Source: Oceanicaulis sp. BBD 1991-10 (lineage in GTDB: Bacteria; Pseudomonadota; Alphaproteobacteria; Caulobacterales; Maricaulaceae). From it: DNA of 34,231 nt. The notes beneath the pieces are model-generated. The model saw only the letters and a program-made list of their open reading frames with translations. It was not told the origin of the DNA and made no database searches. Each line of letters begins with the position of its first letter. Position 1 is the stretch's first letter. Where the stretch lies: NCBI GenBank assembly GCA_001657295.1, contig LYSW01000032.1:1-34231 (forward strand), given 5' to 3'. Shown here in pieces: positions 16,908 through 32,360 of this stretch. Position numbers and translations under genes: made by a program.

Positions 16908-17228
16908 ATGGCGGCGGAACTCAATTCCAATGAAGAGCAGGGCGATGCTGATGACATCGGCGTGCTTTGTGAAGCCTTGCTGAAGCTTGAAACCGCGGAT
17001 GAAGCAAGACGTTTCCTTCGCGATCTGGCGACCCCGGGCGAATTGCAGGCGCTGGCGGAGCGCTGGCGGGTCGCGCGCTTGCTTGACGAAGGTGAGAAAT
17101 CCTATCGGGAGATCAGCGCGGAGACCGGGGTCAGCACCACCACGGTCACACGGGTCGCACGCTTCCTTACGCAGGAAGACCATCAGGGTTACCGGCTGCT
17201 GCTGGATCGAATGGAGACAAAGCGGTGA
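16908..17228 (+). CDS. TrpR-like regulator (YerC/YecD family), probable his operon repressor
   Basis: A 106-residue all-helical protein of the Trp-repressor-like superfamily, YerC/YecD branch. It shows LCEALLKLETADEARRFLRDLATPGELQALAERWRVARLL followed by a helix-turn-helix, SYREISAETGVSTTTVTRVARFL (about residues 64-86). Relatives sit at the head of histidine operons in other bacteria and are described as his repressors (HisR). ATG 16908 (or 16905, the adjacent Met codon) is chosen because AAAGGG lies just upstream. The longer frame from 16848 would start inside the promoter. Its stop overlaps the hisG start (GTGA), so it is co-transcribed and coupled. Autoregulation through the palindrome at 16856-16869 is a likely inference. 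Confidence 0.85.
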   Translation: MAAELNSNEEQGDADDIGVLCEALLKLETADEARRFLRDLATPGELQALAERWRVARLLDEGEKSYREISAETGVSTTTVTRVARFLTQEDHQGYRLLLDRMETKR

Positions 17229-18112
17229 GTGTTGAACGACTGACCCTTGGAGTTCAGAAGAAAGGCCGGTTGGCTGACGGCGGCTTTGAGCTCCTGAAAC
17301 GTGCTGGCGTGAAGCTCGCCTATGGCCGGGACCAGCTCCTGCGCCGCGCTGAGAATCTGCCCCTCGATCTGATGTTGATCCGGGACGACGATATTCCAAG
17401 CTTCGTGGCGACGGGCGCGTGCGATTACGGCATTGTCGGCGAGAACGTGCTCCATGAGGCCAAGCATCGCTCCGCGCGGCTGTCGGGATTGGAGGTCGTG
17501 CTCAAGCTTGGCTTCGCGCGCTGCCGCTTAAAGCTCGCGGCGGCGAAAGACGGGAATATCCGCACGATCGACGATCTGAACGGCCGAACCGTCGCAACCA
17601 GCTATCCGGGGCTGACCCAGGCCTATCTGCGCGAGCGGGGCGTCGAGGCGGAGATGGTCGAGATGGGCGGGAGCGTGGAAGTCGCCCCTAAGGTCGGCGT
17701 CGCCGATGCGATTTGCGATTTGGTGTCGACTGGGGCGACCCTTGAAGCCAACGGCCTCTTCGCCTTCGAGACCGTCTTCGAGAGCGAAGCGGTGCTGATC
17801 CGGCGCTCGGAACGGGCGGAAGACCCGGTCGAGGATACCGCGCAATTGCTGGTGCAGCGTTTTGAAGGCGTGATCGCCTCGCGCCAAACCAAATACATCC
17901 TGCTCAATGCGCCGACCGACCGGATTGAGGAGGTCCGCGCGGTTCTGCCCGGCACCGATGCGCCGACGGTCGCGCCGGTGGTCGGCCGCGAAGACGTTGT
18001 GGCTGTTCACGCGGTGTGCACCGAGGAAGTCTTCTGGTCGACGCTGGAGCGGCTCAAAGCGGTCGGCGCCCGCTCGATTCTCGTGATGCCGATCGAAAAG
18101 ATGATGGCCTGA
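17225..18112 (+). CDS. hisG: ATP phosphoribosyltransferase, long form
   Basis: First enzyme of histidine synthesis, joining ATP and PRPP to give phosphoribosyl-ATP. At 295 residues it is the long, self-regulated form: an N-terminal catalytic half (LTLGVQKKGRLADGGFELL; LIRDDDIPSFVATGACDYGIVGENVL; GSVEVAPKVGVADAICDLVSTGATLEANGL with the PRPP loop) plus a C-terminal ACT-like histidine-sensing domain (EGVIASRQTKYILLNAPTD ... ILVMPIEKMM). HisZ is therefore not required. The C-terminal part closely resembles the E. coli enzyme, as I recall it. The GTG start at 17225 overlaps the regulator's stop, and ATG of hisD follows one base after the stop. Feedback inhibition by histidine is expected from the domain. 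Confidence 0.96.
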   Translation: MSVERLTLGVQKKGRLADGGFELLKRAGVKLAYGRDQLLRRAENLPLDLMLIRDDDIPSFVATGACDYGIVGENVLHEAKHRSARLSGLEVVLKLGFARCRLKLAAAKDGNIRTIDDLNGRTVATSYPGLTQAYLRERGVEAEMVEMGGSVEVAPKVGVADAICDLVSTGATLEANGLFAFETVFESEAVLIRRSERAEDPVEDTAQLLVQRFEGVIASRQTKYILLNAPTDRIEEVRAVLPGTDAPTVAPVVGREDVVAVHAVCTEEVFWSTLERLKAVGARSILVMPIEKMMA

Positions 18113-18113
18113 C

Positions 18114-19424
18114 ATGCTGACGCGAATGATCTGGTCCGACCTGGATGAGGATGCGCGTGGCGCGTTGTTCGCGCGCCCCTCCGCCTCGTCCGACGCCTTT
18201 GATGTCGCGCGCGAAGTGATCGACGCGGTCGCCGCCAATGGCGAAGCCGCGGTGCGTGATTACGCCCGGCGGTTCGACGGCTGGGCGCCGTCCGAGGGAT
18301 TTCGCGTGTCCGCTGACGCGCTGACCGAGGCTGAGCGCCGATTGTCGAATGAAGCCAGGGACGCGATCCTGCGCGCCGCCGACGCGGTGCGCCGCTTCCA
18401 CGCGGAACAGGGCTATCGTTCGGTCGAGGTGGAGACTTGGCCGGGGGCGAAGGCTCAGCGTCGCGTGACCCCGATTGAAGTGGCGGGGCTCTATGTTCCC
18501 GCCGGAACTGCGCCGCTGGTCTCAACTCTGGTGATGCTGGCCGTGCCCGCTCAGATCGCCGGCGCTCGCCGCATCGCGGTGATCGCGCCGCCGCGCCGGG
18601 GCGAGGGGATTGAGCCCACGCTCCTGGGCGCCGCGAGACTGCTGGGATTGGACGAAGTCTATGCGCTTGGCGGCGCTCACGGCGTCGCCGCCCTGGGTCT
18701 TGGCGTCGCAGGCCTTCCCAAGGCGGACAAGATATTCGGGCCCGGCAACGCCTATGTGGCGGCTGCGAAGGCCTTGCTGGCGCAAACTCCGGGCGGAGCG
18801 GCGACCGATCTTCCGGCCGGGCCCAGCGAAGTGATGGTGGTCGCCGATGAGACGGCCGATCCCGATCTTGTCGCGATCGATCTTCTCAGCCAGGCCGAAC
18901 ATGACAGGATGGCGCAAGTGGTGCTGGTCGTACGCTCTGACGAGTTCGTCACGCAGGTCGAGCGCTCGATCGATCGCTGGCTCGACAAGCTGCCGCGGGC
19001 CGAAACGGCGCGTGCGGCCTTGGCGAACTCGCGGGCGGTCATCGTCGCCGATGAATCCGAGGCGATCGAAGCAGCGGACGGCTACGCCTCCGAACACCTT
19101 ATCGTTCAGACCGCCGATCCGCGCGGATTTGCAGACCGGGTCCGGCATGCCGGCTCGATATTCCTCGGCCCCTGGACGCCGGAAGCGGCGGGAGACTATG
19201 CCGGCGGGCCCAATCACGCCCTGCCCACGGCGGGCGCGGCGCGCGCCTATGGCGGCGTCACCGTCGAGATGTTTCAGAAGACCACCACCTTGCTTGAGCT
19301 GGATCGCGAAGGGGCGGCGGCCATTGCTCCGGTCGTCGAAACCCTGGCGGCTCTGGAAGGGCTCGATGCGCATCGGCTCGCCATGGCGGTGCGGCGAGAA
19401 CGGGCCGAGGGGGCGGGATCATGA
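18114..19424 (+). CDS. hisD: Histidinol dehydrogenase
   Basis: A 436-residue zinc enzyme that oxidises L-histidinol to histidine in two NAD-dependent steps. Clear signatures are VAGLYVPAGTAPLVSTLVMLAVPAQIAG, ALGGAHGVAALGLG, KIFGPGNAYV, DLPAGPSEVMVVADETADP, the zinc/catalytic segment DLLSQAEHD, and the late AGDYAGGPNHALPTAGAARAYGG. Length and all main motifs are normal. ATG 18114 lies one base after the hisG stop. The gene ends in an ATGA overlap with the hisB-type fusion. In the operon order, hisC would be expected next, and it is missing as a separate gene. Confidence 0.97.
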   Translation: MLTRMIWSDLDEDARGALFARPSASSDAFDVAREVIDAVAANGEAAVRDYARRFDGWAPSEGFRVSADALTEAERRLSNEARDAILRAADAVRRFHAEQGYRSVEVETWPGAKAQRRVTPIEVAGLYVPAGTAPLVSTLVMLAVPAQIAGARRIAVIAPPRRGEGIEPTLLGAARLLGLDEVYALGGAHGVAALGLGVAGLPKADKIFGPGNAYVAAAKALLAQTPGGAATDLPAGPSEVMVVADETADPDLVAIDLLSQAEHDRMAQVVLVVRSDEFVTQVERSIDRWLDKLPRAETARAALANSRAVIVADESEAIEAADGYASEHLIVQTADPRGFADRVRHAGSIFLGPWTPEAAGDYAGGPNHALPTAGAARAYGGVTVEMFQKTTTLLELDREGAAAIAPVVETLAALEGLDAHRLAMAVRRERAEGAGS

Positions 19425-20626
19425 GCCGCACATATCTGGACCTGTCCGGAAGCTCGGATCAGCGCACCGCGACAGCGCTGGTGGAGCGGCTCGCCAACCT
19501 GCTTAAGCTCGACCTGGGCGGCGTGGTCCTCGCATCTTCGCCGGCGGACGCCCTGCGGGCCTGCGCGGCGGCTGGCGTCGACATCGCCGATGATCGCACC
19601 CTGATGGGTGTTGTCGGGCTGGACGCCCCTATCGCGGCCGGCGCCGCGACGCTGCTTCGGGTCGGACCGGAGCAAGCGCCTCTAAGCGTCATCATCATCG
19701 CCAATCCGGCCAGCCGGGACAGCGTCCGAAAGGCGCTGTCGAGGCCGGCGGGCCTGCTTCTGGAGGCGGGGCTGGACGCATTACGGCCGGCGGCGCGGCT
19801 GAAGGCGCGCGCCGACCGGGACACGCGTGGCGACCTGCTTGACCGTGCGGCCGACCAGCTTGAGCGGGTCGCGGAGGTCCGGAGTGTGCAAGTGGGTCCG
19901 GAAGGCCTGGTTTTGGAGGTTGAGCCGGGCGCCGAGCTGGAGCTTGTCGATCAGGTCGGCTTGCAGGGGCGCACGGACACAGGGCGGGTAAGCTATGACG
20001 TCGCCGACGCCGCAACGGCCCGCGCCCTGGTCGATTGGCTCGGCGCCGCCGACAACGCTCGCACCGCCACGATCCGTCGCACCACTAAGGAGACGGATAT
20101 CGCTTTGAGTGTCGATCTCGACGGCGAGGGGGTCAGCGCGGACACCGGCGTGCACTTCTTCGATCATATGCTCGACCAGATCGGGCGCCATGGCGGAATC
20201 GGCCTTCGTGTCGTCTGCGAAGGCGATGTGGAGGTCGACGCCCACCACACTATCGAGGATGTTTGCCTGGCGCTCGGCGAAGCGCTGCGCGACGCGTTGG
20301 GCGACAAGCGCGGCATCGCCCGCTTCGGCTTTGAAACGCCGATGGATGAAACCCGGGCCAGCGTCTGGATTGATCTGTCGGGCCGGCCCTATGCGCGCTT
20401 CGACGGCGCGATACCGGGCGAGCGAGTCGGCGATTTTCCCGTTGAGATGTGCGCCCACGCCTTCCGCTCGCTGGCCGAATCCCTGCGCGCGGCGATCCAT
20501 GTGAAGGTCGACGGTGAAAACGCGCACCACATGGTGGAATCCTGCTTCAAGTCTTTTGGCCGGGCGCTGCGCATGGCGAAGACGATTGAGGGCGACGCCC
20601 TGCCGTCCACCAAGGGTGTCTTGTGA
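19421..20626 (+). CDS. hisB: Imidazoleglycerol-phosphate dehydratase fused to a degenerate HisC-like N-terminal domain
   Basis: A 401-residue protein. Residues about 214-401 are a complete imidazoleglycerol-phosphate dehydratase: DTGVHFFDHMLDQIGRHG, the metal motif DAHHTIEDVCLALG, PVEMCAHAFRSLAESLRA and the second metal motif AHHMVESCFKSFGRAL. Residues 1-212 are extra. They are not the HAD phosphatase found in enteric HisB, since no DxDxT motif is present. They read instead like a compressed aminotransferase: YLDLSGSSDQ, ALVERLANLLKLDLGGVVLA, VIIIANPASRDS (compare NPNNPTG), AGLLLEAGLDAL (compare the DEAY strand) and a C-terminal-domain-like stretch VRSVQVGPEGLVLEVEPGAEL. The SK lysine segment and about 140 residues are absent, so it cannot be an active PLP enzyme. 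The domain occupies the slot of hisC. The HisB call is firm; the HisC ancestry is an inference. Confidence 0.93.
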   Translation: MSRTYLDLSGSSDQRTATALVERLANLLKLDLGGVVLASSPADALRACAAAGVDIADDRTLMGVVGLDAPIAAGAATLLRVGPEQAPLSVIIIANPASRDSVRKALSRPAGLLLEAGLDALRPAARLKARADRDTRGDLLDRAADQLERVAEVRSVQVGPEGLVLEVEPGAELELVDQVGLQGRTDTGRVSYDVADAATARALVDWLGAADNARTATIRRTTKETDIALSVDLDGEGVSADTGVHFFDHMLDQIGRHGGIGLRVVCEGDVEVDAHHTIEDVCLALGEALRDALGDKRGIARFGFETPMDETRASVWIDLSGRPYARFDGAIPGERVGDFPVEMCAHAFRSLAESLRAAIHVKVDGENAHHMVESCFKSFGRALRMAKTIEGDALPSTKGVL

Positions 20627-20627
20627 C

Positions 20628-21227
20628 GTGACCGCCGCCATCATCGACACCTCGACAGCGAATATCGCCTCCGTGCGCTACGCGCTTGAACGCCTCGGCG
20701 CCGCTTACACGCTCGCCCGCACGCCGGCGCAGGCCGAAGCGTGCGACCGGCTCATCCTGCCCGGGGTCGGAGCGGCCGGACCGGCGATGGCGGCGCTGCG
20801 CGCCAATGGCTGGGCGACGGCTTTAAAACAGGAGGCGCGCCCGCTTCTGGGGGTCTGCCTTGGCATGCAGCTCCTGTTTGACTGGTCTGAGGAAAGCCAG
20901 TGCGAGCTTCTCGGATTGATTCCGGGCCGGGTGGAGCGTTTGGATCCGGGACGGGCCGGTCCCTGGCCTCACATGGGCTGGAATACGCTGAGCGGCTTCG
21001 CCGACACGGAACCGCTACTGGCCGGCGTCGAGGAGGGCGCACGCGTCTATTTCGTGCACGGCTTCTTCGTTCGACCCAGCCCGGCCACGATCGCACGAAC
21101 AGAGTATGGCGAAGCCGTCACCGCCATGGCGCGGGCCGGCGGCGTGGCGGGGTGTCAGTTTCACCCCGAGCGGTCCGGACCGGTCGGTGCGCGGATCTTG
21201 AAGAATTTCCTGGAGAGCGCTCCATGA
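20628..21227 (+). CDS. hisH: Imidazole glycerol phosphate synthase, glutaminase subunit
   Basis: A 199-residue class I glutamine amidotransferase that supplies ammonia to HisF. It has the N-terminal AAIIDTSTANIASVRYALERLG, LILPGVGAAGPAM, the nucleophile loop LLGVCLGMQLLF, the HMGWN motif, YFVHGFF, and the catalytic His-Glu in CQFHPERSG. GTG 20628 is chosen. It lies one base after the hisB stop, and the protein then begins at the family's usual N-terminus; an upstream ATG at 20514 would only translate hisB sequence out of frame. Its stop overlaps the hisA start (ATGA). Confidence 0.95.
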   Translation: MTAAIIDTSTANIASVRYALERLGAAYTLARTPAQAEACDRLILPGVGAAGPAMAALRANGWATALKQEARPLLGVCLGMQLLFDWSEESQCELLGLIPGRVERLDPGRAGPWPHMGWNTLSGFADTEPLLAGVEEGARVYFVHGFFVRPSPATIARTEYGEAVTAMARAGGVAGCQFHPERSGPVGARILKNFLESAP

Positions 21228-21946
21228 TCATCTATCCCGCCATCGACGTGCTCGATGGCCGCGTCGTCCGCCTGGCCAAGGGTGATTTTGACGCGGTGAC
21301 CGATTATGGCGGCGACCCGGTCGCCGCCGCTCAAGCCTGGCGCGCCGCCGGAGCGGAATGGCTGCACCTGGTCGACCTGTCCGGCGCCCGCGACGGCGCG
21401 CGGCGTCAACAATCCCTGGTCAGCGCCATCACCGCCACGGGCTTGAAGGTCCAGACCGGCGGAGGCGTGCGCAGCGAGGCGGATGTCGACGCGATCCTTG
21501 AAGCCGGCGCCCATCGCGTTGTGGTCGGCAGCCTCGCGGTCAGCGATCCTCACACGGTGATCGGCTGGATCGCCAAATTTGGCGCGGATCAGATTGCGGC
21601 CGCCTTCGACGTCCGCATCGAATCGGGCTCGGTCTATCCGACCCTGAAAGGCTGGACCGAGCGCGCGCCGCGCACGCTTGCGGAATTGCTGGCGGATTAT
21701 CGGCGGGCGGGGCTGGCCCATGCCCTGGTGACCGATGTGGAGCGTGACGGGATGCTGCAGGGACCCAATTTCGATCTCTACGCCGACCTCATTGCGGCGC
21801 GTCCGGACATGGCGTGGCAGGCCTCAGGCGGCGTGTCCAGTCTGGACGATGTCAAAGCGTTGAAAGCGGCGGGACTTGGCGGGGTCATCATCGGACGGGC
21901 CCTGTTTGAGGGCCGCCTTGATCTGACTGAGGCGCTGGCATGCTAG
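21224..21946 (+). CDS. hisA: Phosphoribosylformimino-5-aminoimidazole carboxamide ribotide isomerase
   Basis: A 240-residue (beta/alpha)8-barrel isomerase. It begins [22 protein letters not shown] (catalytic Asp in AIDVLDG), with [44 protein letters not shown], the second catalytic Asp region [14 protein letters not shown], and [11 protein letters not shown]. The phosphate-binding GGG and SGG loops are intact. ATG 21224 overlaps the hisH stop, and the last seven bases overlap the hisF start. The DYGxDP...LHLVDLSGA pattern is closer to enteric HisA than to the usual alphaproteobacterial type as I recall it. Confidence 0.95.
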
Positions 21947-22707
21947 CGCGCCGCATCATTCCCTGCCTGGATGTGCGCGACGGCCGGGTCGTGAAGGGCG
22001 TGCGATTCCGCAATCACGAGGATGTCGGCGACATTGTCGAACTGGCGGCGCGCTACAGCGCCGAAGGGGCGGACGAATTGGTCTTCTACGATATCTCCGC
22101 AAGCCCCGAGGCCCGCACGGTGGAGCCGGAATGGGTCGGGCGGGTGGCGCGGGAGATCGATATTCCGTTTTGCGTCGCCGGAGGCATTCGGTCGCTCGAC
22201 GACGCCCGTGCGCGCCTGTTCGCCGGCGCCGACAAGATTTCCGTGAACACGCCCGCGCTTGACGATCCCAGCCTTGTCGACGCGCTCGCGCGCGAATTCG
22301 GCAGCCAGTGCGTCGTCGTGGGAATCGACAGCCGCAGCGTTGACGGCGAATGGCTCTGTCACAAGAACACCGGCGATCCCGGCCGGATGTCCACGGAGCC
22401 CCGGCGCACGCTCGACTGGGCGGGCGAGGTCACCCGGCGCGGCGCCGGCGAGATCGTCTTGAACTGCATGGATCAGGACGGCGTGCGCGACGGCTATGAT
22501 GTCGAACAGCTTGCAGCGGTGAGGGCGGTGTGTCCGGCGCCGCTCATCGCGTCCGGCGGGGCGGGCGCGAAAGAGCATTTTCGAGACGTCTTCAACGCCG
22601 CCTGCGTTGACGGCGCATTGGCGGCGAGCGTGTTCCACAAACAGGTGATCGAGATCGGCGACCTGAAGCGCTGGCTCGACGAAGAAGGCGTGGAGGTCCG
22701 GCTGTGA
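21940..22707 (+). CDS. hisF: Imidazole glycerol phosphate synthase, cyclase subunit
   Basis: A 255-residue (beta/alpha)8 cyclase, partner of HisH. It begins [20 protein letters not shown] (catalytic Asp11) and continues [41 protein letters not shown] and [30 protein letters not shown] carries the second catalytic Asp, and [13 protein letters not shown] and [12 protein letters not shown] follow. The '[35 protein letters not shown]' stretch matches the enteric/Bacteroidetes form of HisF and not the 'VKGVNFVDLRDAGDPVE' form usual in alphaproteobacteria, which points to lateral origin. The start overlaps hisA by seven bases; the stop overlaps the next start as GTGA. Confidence 0.96.
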
Positions 22708-23312
22708 TCGATGTCAGCGCGATTGATTTTGAAAAGTCCGGCGGCCTGGTTCCAGCCATCGTCCAACATGCCGACACCGGCGAGGTGTTGATGCTGGGCT
22801 ATATGAACGCGGAAGCGGTTGAGGCGACGCTTAAGAAAAAGCGCGTAACTTTTTGGTCCAGGTCAAAAAAGAGACTTTGGAAAAAAGGTGAAACAAGCGG
22901 TGACGTGCTTCGCCTGACCTCGATTGTCAAGGATTGCGATAGCGACGCCTTGCTGGTGCAGGCCCGGCCCGCGGGACCGACCTGTCATTTGGGATTCAAA
23001 TCCTGTTTCGGCGACGCGCCTGGCCCGGAGCTCGCATTTTTGGGCGAGTTGCAGCGTATCGTGGACGAGCGGTCCAAGGATGCGCCGAAAGACAGCTATA
23101 CCGCCAAGCTTTTGAGCAAAGGCGTGCTTAAATGCGCCCAGAAAGTCGGTGAGGAAGGTGTTGAAACCGCACTCGCCGGCGCGGCGGAAAGCGATGACGC
23201 CCTTCTGGGCGAGGCGGCGGATCTGCTCTATCACCTCACCGTGCTTTTAAAAGCGCGCAATCTGTCGCTCAGCGACGCCGCCGCCGTCTTGCGCACCCGC
23301 CACAAGACCTAG
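22704..23312 (+). CDS. hisI: Bifunctional phosphoribosyl-AMP cyclohydrolase / phosphoribosyl-ATP pyrophosphatase
   Basis: A 202-residue HisIE fusion catalysing the second and third steps of histidine synthesis. The cyclohydrolase half (about 1-112) has [30 protein letters not shown], the metal/zinc residues of [11 protein letters not shown], and [12 protein letters not shown]. The pyrophosphatase half (about 114-202) has [10 protein letters not shown], the acidic motif [12 protein letters not shown] and [13 protein letters not shown]. Alphaproteobacteria usually carry separate hisI and hisE; the fusion is typical of enterics and Bacteroidetes. A local A-rich patch (about 22831-22897, roughly 36% G+C by hand count) encodes the [14 protein letters not shown] segment. 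The GTG start at 22704 overlaps the hisF stop. It is the last gene of the operon, ending nine bases from the convergent M14 gene. Confidence 0.95.
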
Positions 23313-31157: not shown

Positions 31158-32360
31158 ATGCCCCAGACCTTCTATGATCGCCTGAGCGAGACCCTTGAGG
31201 AGATCAAGGCGGACGGGCTCTACAAGCGCGAGCGCATCATCACCTCGCAGCAATTCTCCGAAATCGACGTCAGGCGCAACGGCGCTTCGAGCCATGTGCT
31301 GAACTTTTGCGCTAATAATTATATGGGCCTGGCCAACCGGACCGAGCTGATCGACGCGGCCAAGGTTGCGCTGGACCGTTACGGTTTCGGCGTGGCCTCG
31401 GTGCGCTTCATCTGCGGCGCGCAGGAGGTCCACCGCCAGCTGGAGCAGAAGCTCGCCCAATTCACCGGACAGGAAGACGCCATTCTTTACGCCGCCGCGT
31501 TCGACGCCAATGGCGGGGTGTTTGAACCGCTGCTGGGTCCGGAAGACGCCATCGTGTCTGACGCACTCAACCATGCCTCGATCATCGACGGCGTTCGCTT
31601 GTGCAAAGCCAAGCGCTATCGCTACGCCAATTCGGACATGAATGATCTTGAGGCCCAGCTCAAACAGGCCCGGGCCGACGGCGCGCGCACGATCCTGATC
31701 GTCACCGACGGCGTGTTTTCGATGGACGGCTATATCGCGGATTTGAAATCCATCTGTGATCTTGCGGACCGATATGACGCGCTGACCATGGTTGATGATT
31801 GCCACGCCCATGGCTTTATGGGCGCAAAAGGGCGCGGCACGCCGGAGCATTGCGGCGTGATGGGCCGGATCGACATCATCACCGGTACGCTGGGCAAGGC
31901 GTTGGGGGGCGCCATGGGCGGCTTCACCGCGGCCAAGCAGCCCGTGATCGACATGCTGCGCCAGCGCTCGCGCCCCTATCTCTTCTCCAACTCGCTGGCG
32001 CCCTCCATCGCGGGGGCGAGCCTGAAAGCGCTCGACATGATTGAAGACGGCGATGATTTGCGCGCGCGCCTGTTCGACAACGCCAGACGCTTCCGCGCCG
32101 GCATGACGCAAGCGGGCTTCGAATTGCTGCCCGGCGAACACCCGATCATTCCGGTCATGCTGGGCGATGCGGCGCTAAGCCAGAAGATGGCGGACTCGCT
32201 CATGGAGGAGGGGGTCTATGTGATCGGCTTCTTCTATCCGGTCGTGCCCAAAGGCAAAGCCCGGATCCGCACCCAGATGAGCGCCGCCCATACGCCGGAA
32301 ATGATTGACCGTGCGGTGGCTGCGTTCACGAAGGTGGGCAAGAAATTGGGCGTGGTTTAG
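31158..32360 (+). CDS. kbl: Glycine C-acetyltransferase (2-amino-3-ketobutyrate CoA ligase)
   Basis: A 400-residue PLP enzyme of the alpha-oxoamine synthase family that splits 2-amino-3-oxobutyrate with CoA into glycine and acetyl-CoA. It begins [28 protein letters not shown], as in known Kbl proteins. It contains [79 protein letters not shown], and the PLP-lysine motif [13 protein letters not shown] (about residue 245). ATG 31158 has GGAG at good spacing; the longer frame from 31056 is not family-like. With tdh downstream it forms the threonine-to-glycine catabolic pair, here interrupted by a small membrane-protein gene. The 158 bases upstream show no clear promoter. Confidence 0.95.

Follow-up and report, generated by a model that had tools for sequence, protein, structure and literature searches.

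The hisB gene and its N-terminal extension

The window analyzed here is the whole of a 34,231-nucleotide stretch of DNA from Oceanicaulis sp. BBD 1991-10 (contig LYSW01000032.1, forward strand). It carries a histidine operon in the order hisG-hisD-hisB-hisH-hisA-hisF-hisIE, and no hisC gene was found between hisD and hisB in this operon. The gene coordinates bear out an earlier reading of the sequence (here called the original prediction), which had described this order as one with hisC missing at that place. The same reading had counted about 212 extra residues at the N terminus of HisB and had suggested that they stem from a fusion of hisC to hisB, after which the HisC part became inactive but was retained, perhaps for scaffolding or regulation. 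The catalytic imidazoleglycerol-phosphate dehydratase (IGPD) part of HisB begins at approximately residue 211 to 213 and matches PF00475 with 193.5 bits (gathering cutoff, 27), so that 210 residues (positions 19421 to 20050) are extra. The hisD stop and the hisB start share four bases (ATGA; 19421-19424). The features of hisB are as follows.

19421..20626, + strand: hisB (401-amino-acid product)
19421..20050, + strand: N-terminal domain of HisB, residues 1 to 210, putative degenerate HisC remnant (from profiles, model, and motifs)
19469..19564, + strand: first HisC-matching block, approximately residues 17 to 48, comprising one helix and the GADEAI-region strand and helix
19565..19699, + strand: middle of about 45 residues, residues 49 to 93, not confidently alignable
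19700..20050, + strand: second HisC-matching block, residues 94 to 210, with 119 columns matched onto HisC columns 227 to 352
20051..20626, + strand: IGPD (HisB) catalytic domain plus stop codon (PF00475, 193.5 bits)

The hisC model of NCBIfam (TIGR01141) matched neither the window HisB nor its N-terminal domain alone at an E value of ≤10, and a profile search of the PDB with 19 N-terminal domains returned noise only. The NCBIfam model for bifunctional HisNB (NF003937) matched the window HisB only from profile position 164, i.e., without an N-terminal HAD part. Given the absence of a HisC-model match from the window sequence alone, the resemblance to HisC noted in the original prediction does not by itself exceed chance; it rose above chance once relatives were added.

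Relatives and stages of decay

With the N-terminal domain as the query, matches were obtained in 19 of 61 genomes, at one place in each (E ≤0.001), comprising all 15 searched genomes of its own genus and one genome in each of four other genera of the family. Throughout the 61 genomes, the domain occurred only in front of HisB, which answers the concern of the original prediction that it might exist independently of his operons. HisB as the query yielded matches in 59 of the 61 genomes and in 121 of 137 family genomes, many of them in reading frames of approximately 550 to 600 amino acids. Four HisB frames were run against NCBIfam, i.e., L063, L065, L068, and L077 (genomes, contigs, loci, families, and genera are denoted by G, C, L, f, and g, respectively). 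The open reading frames L065 and L068 (545 to 555 amino acids) encode a full HisC in frame with HisB, scoring 311.8 and 306.8 bits against the hisC equivalog cutoff of 276.55 bits. The HisC part of L063 reached 88.9 bits, far below this cutoff, and L077 (3459-5573) joins HisD, confirmed by its model, straight to HisB.

In an order-wide search with a full fusion as the query, 115 of 299 genomes gave a match (E ≤1e-60). The addition of 40 of these loci to those found earlier led to a chosen, nonrandom set of 99 fused-type HisB proteins, which were sorted by reading their sequences. They include 32 short forms (N-terminal domains of 184 to 219 amino acids), 29 longer "pseudo" forms, 19 intact fusions, and 19 forms in which the domain is gone (HisD-HisB or a cut piece, with the HisD identity model-confirmed for L077 only). 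Direct HisD-HisB joins, lacking HisC, occur in f1 g9, G080, and part of f4 g31 (L077, L102-L107, L101, and several of L211-L230). The search for full-length fusions and for the same architecture in related genomes, which the original prediction had suggested as a check, has brought to light both intact fusions and half-decayed intermediates.

These classes differ in the HisC motifs SPxNPTG, DE[AS][YF], and SKxxGLAG. By pattern search, each motif is present in 19/19 intact fusions; the pseudo forms retain them in 0, 2, and 0 of 29 cases, respectively, and none of the three was found in any of the 32 short forms, including that of the window. An alignment of 28 pseudo forms with the intact fusions shows L, I, A, Q, Y, P, or M in place of the lysine in all 28, each of which kept the Asp of DEAY; this count left out the form from G216, which was read separately and has S at the lysine position. 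That locus (L207) encodes a nearly full-length fused HisC with the lysine loop RSLSSAYGLAG and with PADPTG replacing SPxNPTG. It sits beside intact relatives and appears to represent an early stage of decay.

Profile homology to HisC

The main query, a profile of the 32 short N-terminal domains, was compared by hhalign with the HisC halves of 13 intact fusions, 19 intact fusions, 28 pseudo forms, and the 28 pseudo forms plus 19 intact fusions; all E values refer to single comparisons. Against the 13 intact halves, the best local match (39.1 bits) placed query columns 96 to 214 onto HisC columns 227 to 352, and a second match collinear with it (33.2 bits) placed columns 20 to 51 onto HisC columns 57 to 88 (global E value, 1.3e-6). 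The maximum among 300 column shuffles was 20.1 bits, and reversed profiles scored 15.5 and 17.7 bits. With the 19 intact halves, two collinear blocks were again obtained, scoring 41.6 bits and 35.3 bits, and the highest score among 200 shuffles was 19.4 bits. The pseudo forms gave 56.7 and 35.6 bits, and the two matches to the combined set scored 62.3 bits and 42.9 bits, with a global probability of 97.8% and an E value of 3.9e-12. Control profiles of HisG (17.6 bits), HisD (18.2 bits), HisH (20.7 bits), HisF (12.2 bits), and HisIE (13.6 bits) were run as well, and the best matches in the control run were to stand-alone HisC (31.1 bits) and to gammaproteobacterial/Bacteroidota HisC (28.2 bits). 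The collinear match to the HisC of the intact fusions thus lies above the controls. An earlier comparison with 19 domains had been weak, with one block at a time; the 32 domains together with the decayed intermediates settled the matter.

The first block of the window domain corresponds to the second hhalign match (HisC columns 57 to 88 with the 13-intact profile or 59 to 90 with the 19-intact profile). The second block comprises the post-lysine strand, the long interdomain helix (model residues 111 to 147), and the C-terminal small domain. Compared with intact HisC, the remnant lacks the N-terminal arm and the mid large domain up through the lysine loop; residues 49 to 93 stand where an intact fusion has the mid large domain, which includes NPNNPTG, DEAY, and the lysine of SKxxGLAG. 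These comparisons revise parts of the motif assignment made in the original prediction. ANPASRDS, which had been put at the NPNNPTG position, aligns with the strand-helix segment that follows the lysine loop (ADPRIITLMLKVL in an intact fusion), and LLLEAGLDALRP, which had been put at the DEAY strand, aligns with AxxALxP, where the long interdomain helix starts. The placements of ALVERLANLLKLDLGGVVLA and GPEGLVLEVEP were about right.

Predicted structure

An AlphaFold2 model was computed from the window domain and eight relatives (25 to 48% identical to it), with no templates and no HisC sequences. The model (predicted local distance difference test [pLDDT] score, 88.2; predicted template-modeling score, 0.65) has a 37-residue helix (residues 111 to 147) followed by a strand-strand-helix-strand-strand-helix arrangement. 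A Foldseek search of the PDB returned 25 matches with an E value of ≤0.001. Among the matches listed, all 50 are pyridoxal phosphate (PLP) enzymes of the aminotransferase fold, including the HisC structures 3ly1 (putative) and 7szp and the threonine-phosphate decarboxylases 1lc5 and 3fkd. A few of them, such as Rv3778c and SapH, are known fold-type I enzymes, and the others were classed as fold-type I by title. The predicted fold of the whole domain is therefore aminotransferase-like at low template-modeling (TM) scores, and no confident fold of another kind, which the original prediction had named as a possible refutation, was obtained. The C-terminal half modeled alone had a pLDDT score of 87.7.

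HisB phylogeny and fusion history

The history of the fusion was examined in two HisB trees, in which bifunctional HisNB proteins, the nearest HisB relatives outside the fusions, served as the outgroup. The second tree leaves out seven ordinary alphaproteobacterial HisB rows of the first. In it, 31 short and 9 gone rows form a single clade (100/97) among the fusions, and one short form (G017) falls outside this 40-row clade. The label "intact" changes five times in an unordered count, with at least four changes forced by well-supported branches, and the HisD-HisB label changes six times, with at least two changes forced. If catalysis was never regained, there would have been at least five inactivations (i.e., in the 40-row clade, G017, G216, G345, and g21 with f4), three of which are single rows, with G017 and G216 flagged as long branches. 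In L130, a gammaproteobacterial metagenome-assembled genome locus, hisC overlaps an unfused hisNB by 8 bases, which is likely the ancestral layout. We infer that the operon was derived from gammaproteobacteria.

Stand-alone hisC genes

The genome of the window carries a separate hisC (309.3 bits; cutoff, 276.55 bits). Counting matches above this cutoff outside the fused gene, 77 of 79 genomes with short, pseudo, or gone forms have a stand-alone hisC (26/26 plus 51/53), versus 8 of 30 intact-fusion genomes (4/13 plus 4/17), the genomes being related and the events not independent; 11 of these 30 were called intact from a full-length match with the lysine unread. The two misses among the 79 are G212 (275.6 bits, just below the cutoff) and G370 (65% complete). 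HisC redundancy was thus resolved in opposite directions in different lineages.

In six of eight compared loci (from the window's own genome, G014, G017, G020, G022, and G036), the stand-alone hisC lies between a methyltransferase gene and a DUF2125 gene; in the other two, which are from f2 genomes, it does not. The methyltransferase neighborhood was examined in 10 of the 19 intact-fusion genomes. There, hisC is still in place in G019 and G034, and no hisC was found at the methyltransferase gene in G024, G025, G015, G031, G018, G029, G021, and G032, which are without a second hisC and in which a chorismate-mutase-like gene adjoins the methyltransferase gene. DUF2125 lies near the methyltransferase gene in G024, G025, G015, and G031 and in 12 of the 19 intact-fusion genomes overall.

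Two further arrangements involve stand-alone hisC genes. In f4 g31, G215:C2:442394-443452 and likewise G163:C17:59829-60881 are stand-alone hisC genes that share the strand of hisB and lie approximately 2.7 kb away from it, as if hisC had been returned to the side of the operon. The intact-fusion genome G140 (C10) has a second, distant HisB (40% identical; 199-amino-acid frame) about 1 kb from a second hisC, which would represent either an additional set of his genes or foreign DNA.

Selection on the remnant

The ratio of nonsynonymous to synonymous substitution rates (omega) was estimated by the Nei-Gojobori method in 36 usable pairs of 37 short pairs, which share lineages; the pair G021/G097 was left out, and synonymous divergence (dS) was saturated in one short and one intact pair. 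The omega values of the N-terminal domain ranged from 0.05 to 0.47 in the 36 short pairs, compared with 0.01 to 0.12 for HisB in the same pairs, and were approximately 3 to 13 times the IGPD values in most pairs. Three pairs of pseudo forms had values of 0.26 to 0.47. In neutral simulations with G+C bias (200 runs for each of two kappa values; five short pairs and one pseudo pair), the observed omega was never reached in any of the six pairs. Since omega does not exceed 0.47 and lies below all neutral runs, the domain is kept as a protein and is under purifying selection. No conserved internal start for separate translation of the IGPD part was found; 2 of the 32 short forms have an ATG close to the domain boundary.

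Origin of the domain and alternative explanations

Taken as a whole, residues 1 to 210 of HisB are probably a dead, shortened remnant of HisC that is kept for the folding and solubility of the fused chain. Profile matches, the template-free model, intact and half-decayed relatives, and the HisB tree all support the proposal of the original prediction that hisC fused to hisB, lost catalysis, and was retained as a domain. Lineages of this order would have carried a gammaproteobacterial-type operon (hisG-hisD-hisC-hisNB...), in which an in-frame fusion linked hisC to the IGPD-encoding part of hisB with loss of the HAD phosphatase part, once or possibly twice. The cell would also have carried a stand-alone hisC, and one of the two HisC activities would then have been lost, in opposite ways by lineage. 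In the lineage of the window, the stand-alone gene would have been kept, and the fused HisC would have been reduced to approximately 185 to 220 residues by loss of its N-terminal arm, its mid large domain, and its PLP lysine. A fold is still predicted for what is left, with the post-lysine strand, the long helix, and the small domain. Judging from its sequence, the fused HisC has probably lost catalysis, and the remnant should be inactive as an aminotransferase. Because it opens the HisB reading frame, with the ATGA overlap with hisD, it would be translated together with HisB. It would form a folded N-terminal appendage on each IGPD subunit, in the place where bifunctional HisB bears its HAD domain, and purifying selection would keep it for the folding and solubility of the fused chain. 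It appears to be dispensable, because deletions elsewhere join HisD straight to HisB. The data show the homology to HisC, the lack of the catalytic motifs, the series of stages, the selection, and the opposite distribution of stand-alone hisC; the direction of transfer, the number of fusions, the loss of activity, and a purely structural role are what we infer.

Several observations weigh against this explanation. The N-terminal domain alone matched nothing in NCBIfam and gave only noise in Pfam and in the PDB (phmmer), and residues 49 to 93 cannot be confidently aligned to HisC. With both pseudo-containing sets, the two hhalign matches occupy overlapping regions of the query; the shuffles cover the 13- and 19-intact sets. 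The Foldseek TM scores are low (0.23 to 0.40 by query), with root mean square deviations of 13 to 18 Å. The C-terminal half alone gave no Foldseek match with an E value of <0.001, and its list mixes aminotransferases (TM score to query, ≤0.60) with arginine-repressor domains, one of which ranked first. The second tree (110 rows, 187 columns) has a bootstrap that had not settled. L130, a long branch, is placed beside 12 intact fusions (97/95 in the first tree and 98/81 in the second); from this placement, the fusion occurred twice, was undone in L130, or the long row is misplaced. Finally, in L032, L035, and L036 (G007, G006, and G014), the omega values of the N-terminal domain are 0.05 to 0.06, near those of HisB, at a dS near saturation. 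Such values are below what folding alone need give and may point to a specific role.

A selected new job for the remnant, i.e., docking of a further pathway enzyme (HisD or stand-alone HisC) on the HisB oligomer or tuning of its assembly or feedback, is a considerably less likely alternative. It is favored by the purifying selection seen in pairs from four genera (g1, g7, g14, and g15), which is strongest in G006, G007, and G014; by an LDLS-like N-terminal motif in 25 of the 32 short forms and a consensus long-helix stretch, AGLxALxPAA, common to them; and by the precedent of HisZ, which is described in parts of two papers as a regulatory protein of HisG in the histidine pathway (PMC10795190 and PMC9734150). 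However, the invariant or nearly invariant columns are G, P, A, and L plus one Asp, without a polar cluster; 31 relatives are 21 to 48% identical to the window domain; and the domain is gone in the f1 g9 loci, G080, and part of f4 g31. A broader version, in which dead HisC domains are a recurrent pseudoenzyme that was inactivated several times and often left a docking or assembly module holding HisD or HisC near the HisB oligomer, seems a little less likely still; if true, a fused enzyme became a scaffold more than once.

We consider it improbable that the remnant is a purely neutral passenger that persists since frameshifts or stops would kill HisB. Its in-frame position before HisB, its fast divergence, its length (184 to 219 amino acids), and its total loss in other genera would suit a passenger, but omega is ≤0.47 in all usable pairs and below every neutral simulation in 6/6 pairs. 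That an unrelated domain became fused and resembles HisC by chance is very improbable: the single sequence has no match and the matches of the C-terminal half are weak, but the two collinear blocks exceed all shuffles and controls, and graded intermediates occupy the same position. A decayed HAD histidinol phosphatase of bifunctional HisB, which would have the same position and whose HisNB relatives form the outgroup, was rejected as the least probable origin, since 30 HAD halves scored 15.8 bits (noise), the predicted fold is aminotransferase-like, and related intact forms carry HisC there.

Comparison with known systems

Gene fusion is classically illustrated by the his operon, and the known his fusions (hisNB, hisIE, HIS4, and HIS7), like those described here, join enzymes of one pathway. 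Bifunctional HisNB of Enterobacteria (HAD phosphatase-IGPD) likewise has an extra enzyme domain before IGPD at the same place in the operon; the extra domain here is derived from HisC rather than HAD, shortened, and predicted to be dead. HIS4 joins hisIE and hisD, whereas the HisD-HisB joins found here lost the intervening HisC. HisZ, a catalytically dead relative of histidyl-tRNA synthetase, is also a dead enzyme relative kept in histidine synthesis, as proposed here, but it forms a subunit of its own and has a known regulatory effect, whereas any role of this remnant is hypothetical. MocR/GabR regulators similarly contain a fold-type I aminotransferase domain inside another protein; they keep PLP binding, whereas the remnant is without the lysine region.

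The open-access papers searched yielded no description of a HisC-HisB fusion or its decay; the original prediction knew of no such fusion. The fused his genes named in the portion of Fani et al. 2007 that covers them are hisA, B, D, E, F, H, I, and N, without hisC (PMC1963479). Excerpts of later papers list seven fused his genes, hisC not among them (PMC10138114), name no hisC fusion (PMC8305728), or contain no mention of hisC or hisB, with one histidine row of the HisIE type (PMC4921024).

Several stages coexist within one order, namely, an intact fusion, a longer lysine-less form, a shrunken remnant, and complete loss (HisD-HisB), and separate hisC and hisNB genes occur in a gammaproteobacterial relative. 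Together with the opposite fates of stand-alone hisC, this constitutes a natural experiment on the fate of a redundant enzyme, in which a stop codon could not eliminate the fused HisC, given that the same frame continues into an essential enzyme. It also carries a warning for annotation, as approximately 200 residues of the window's HisB are recognized by no model in the searched family libraries.

Other genes of the window

The remaining genes of the operon are as follows.

17225..18112, + strand: hisG, first gene of the operon (HisG, 166.7 bits; HisG_C, 80.6 bits)
18114..19424, + strand: hisD (Pfam Histidinol_dh, 468.6 bits)
20628..21227, + strand: hisH
21224..21946, + strand: hisA
21940..22707, + strand: hisF
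22704..23312, + strand: hisIE

An aminotransferase-like gene at 31293-32327 was considered as the missing HisC and rejected; it reads as a ketobutyrate ligase and adjoins a threonine-dehydrogenase-like gene. Directly upstream of hisG, and overlapping its start by 4 bases, is a TrpR-family gene (16908-17228) that scored 72.9 bits with a YerC/YecD-type model (cutoff, 42.2 bits). It may encode a HisR-like regulator of the histidine genes, a label for which we assume that HisR is akin to YerC. HisR is named in a part of PMC9413887.

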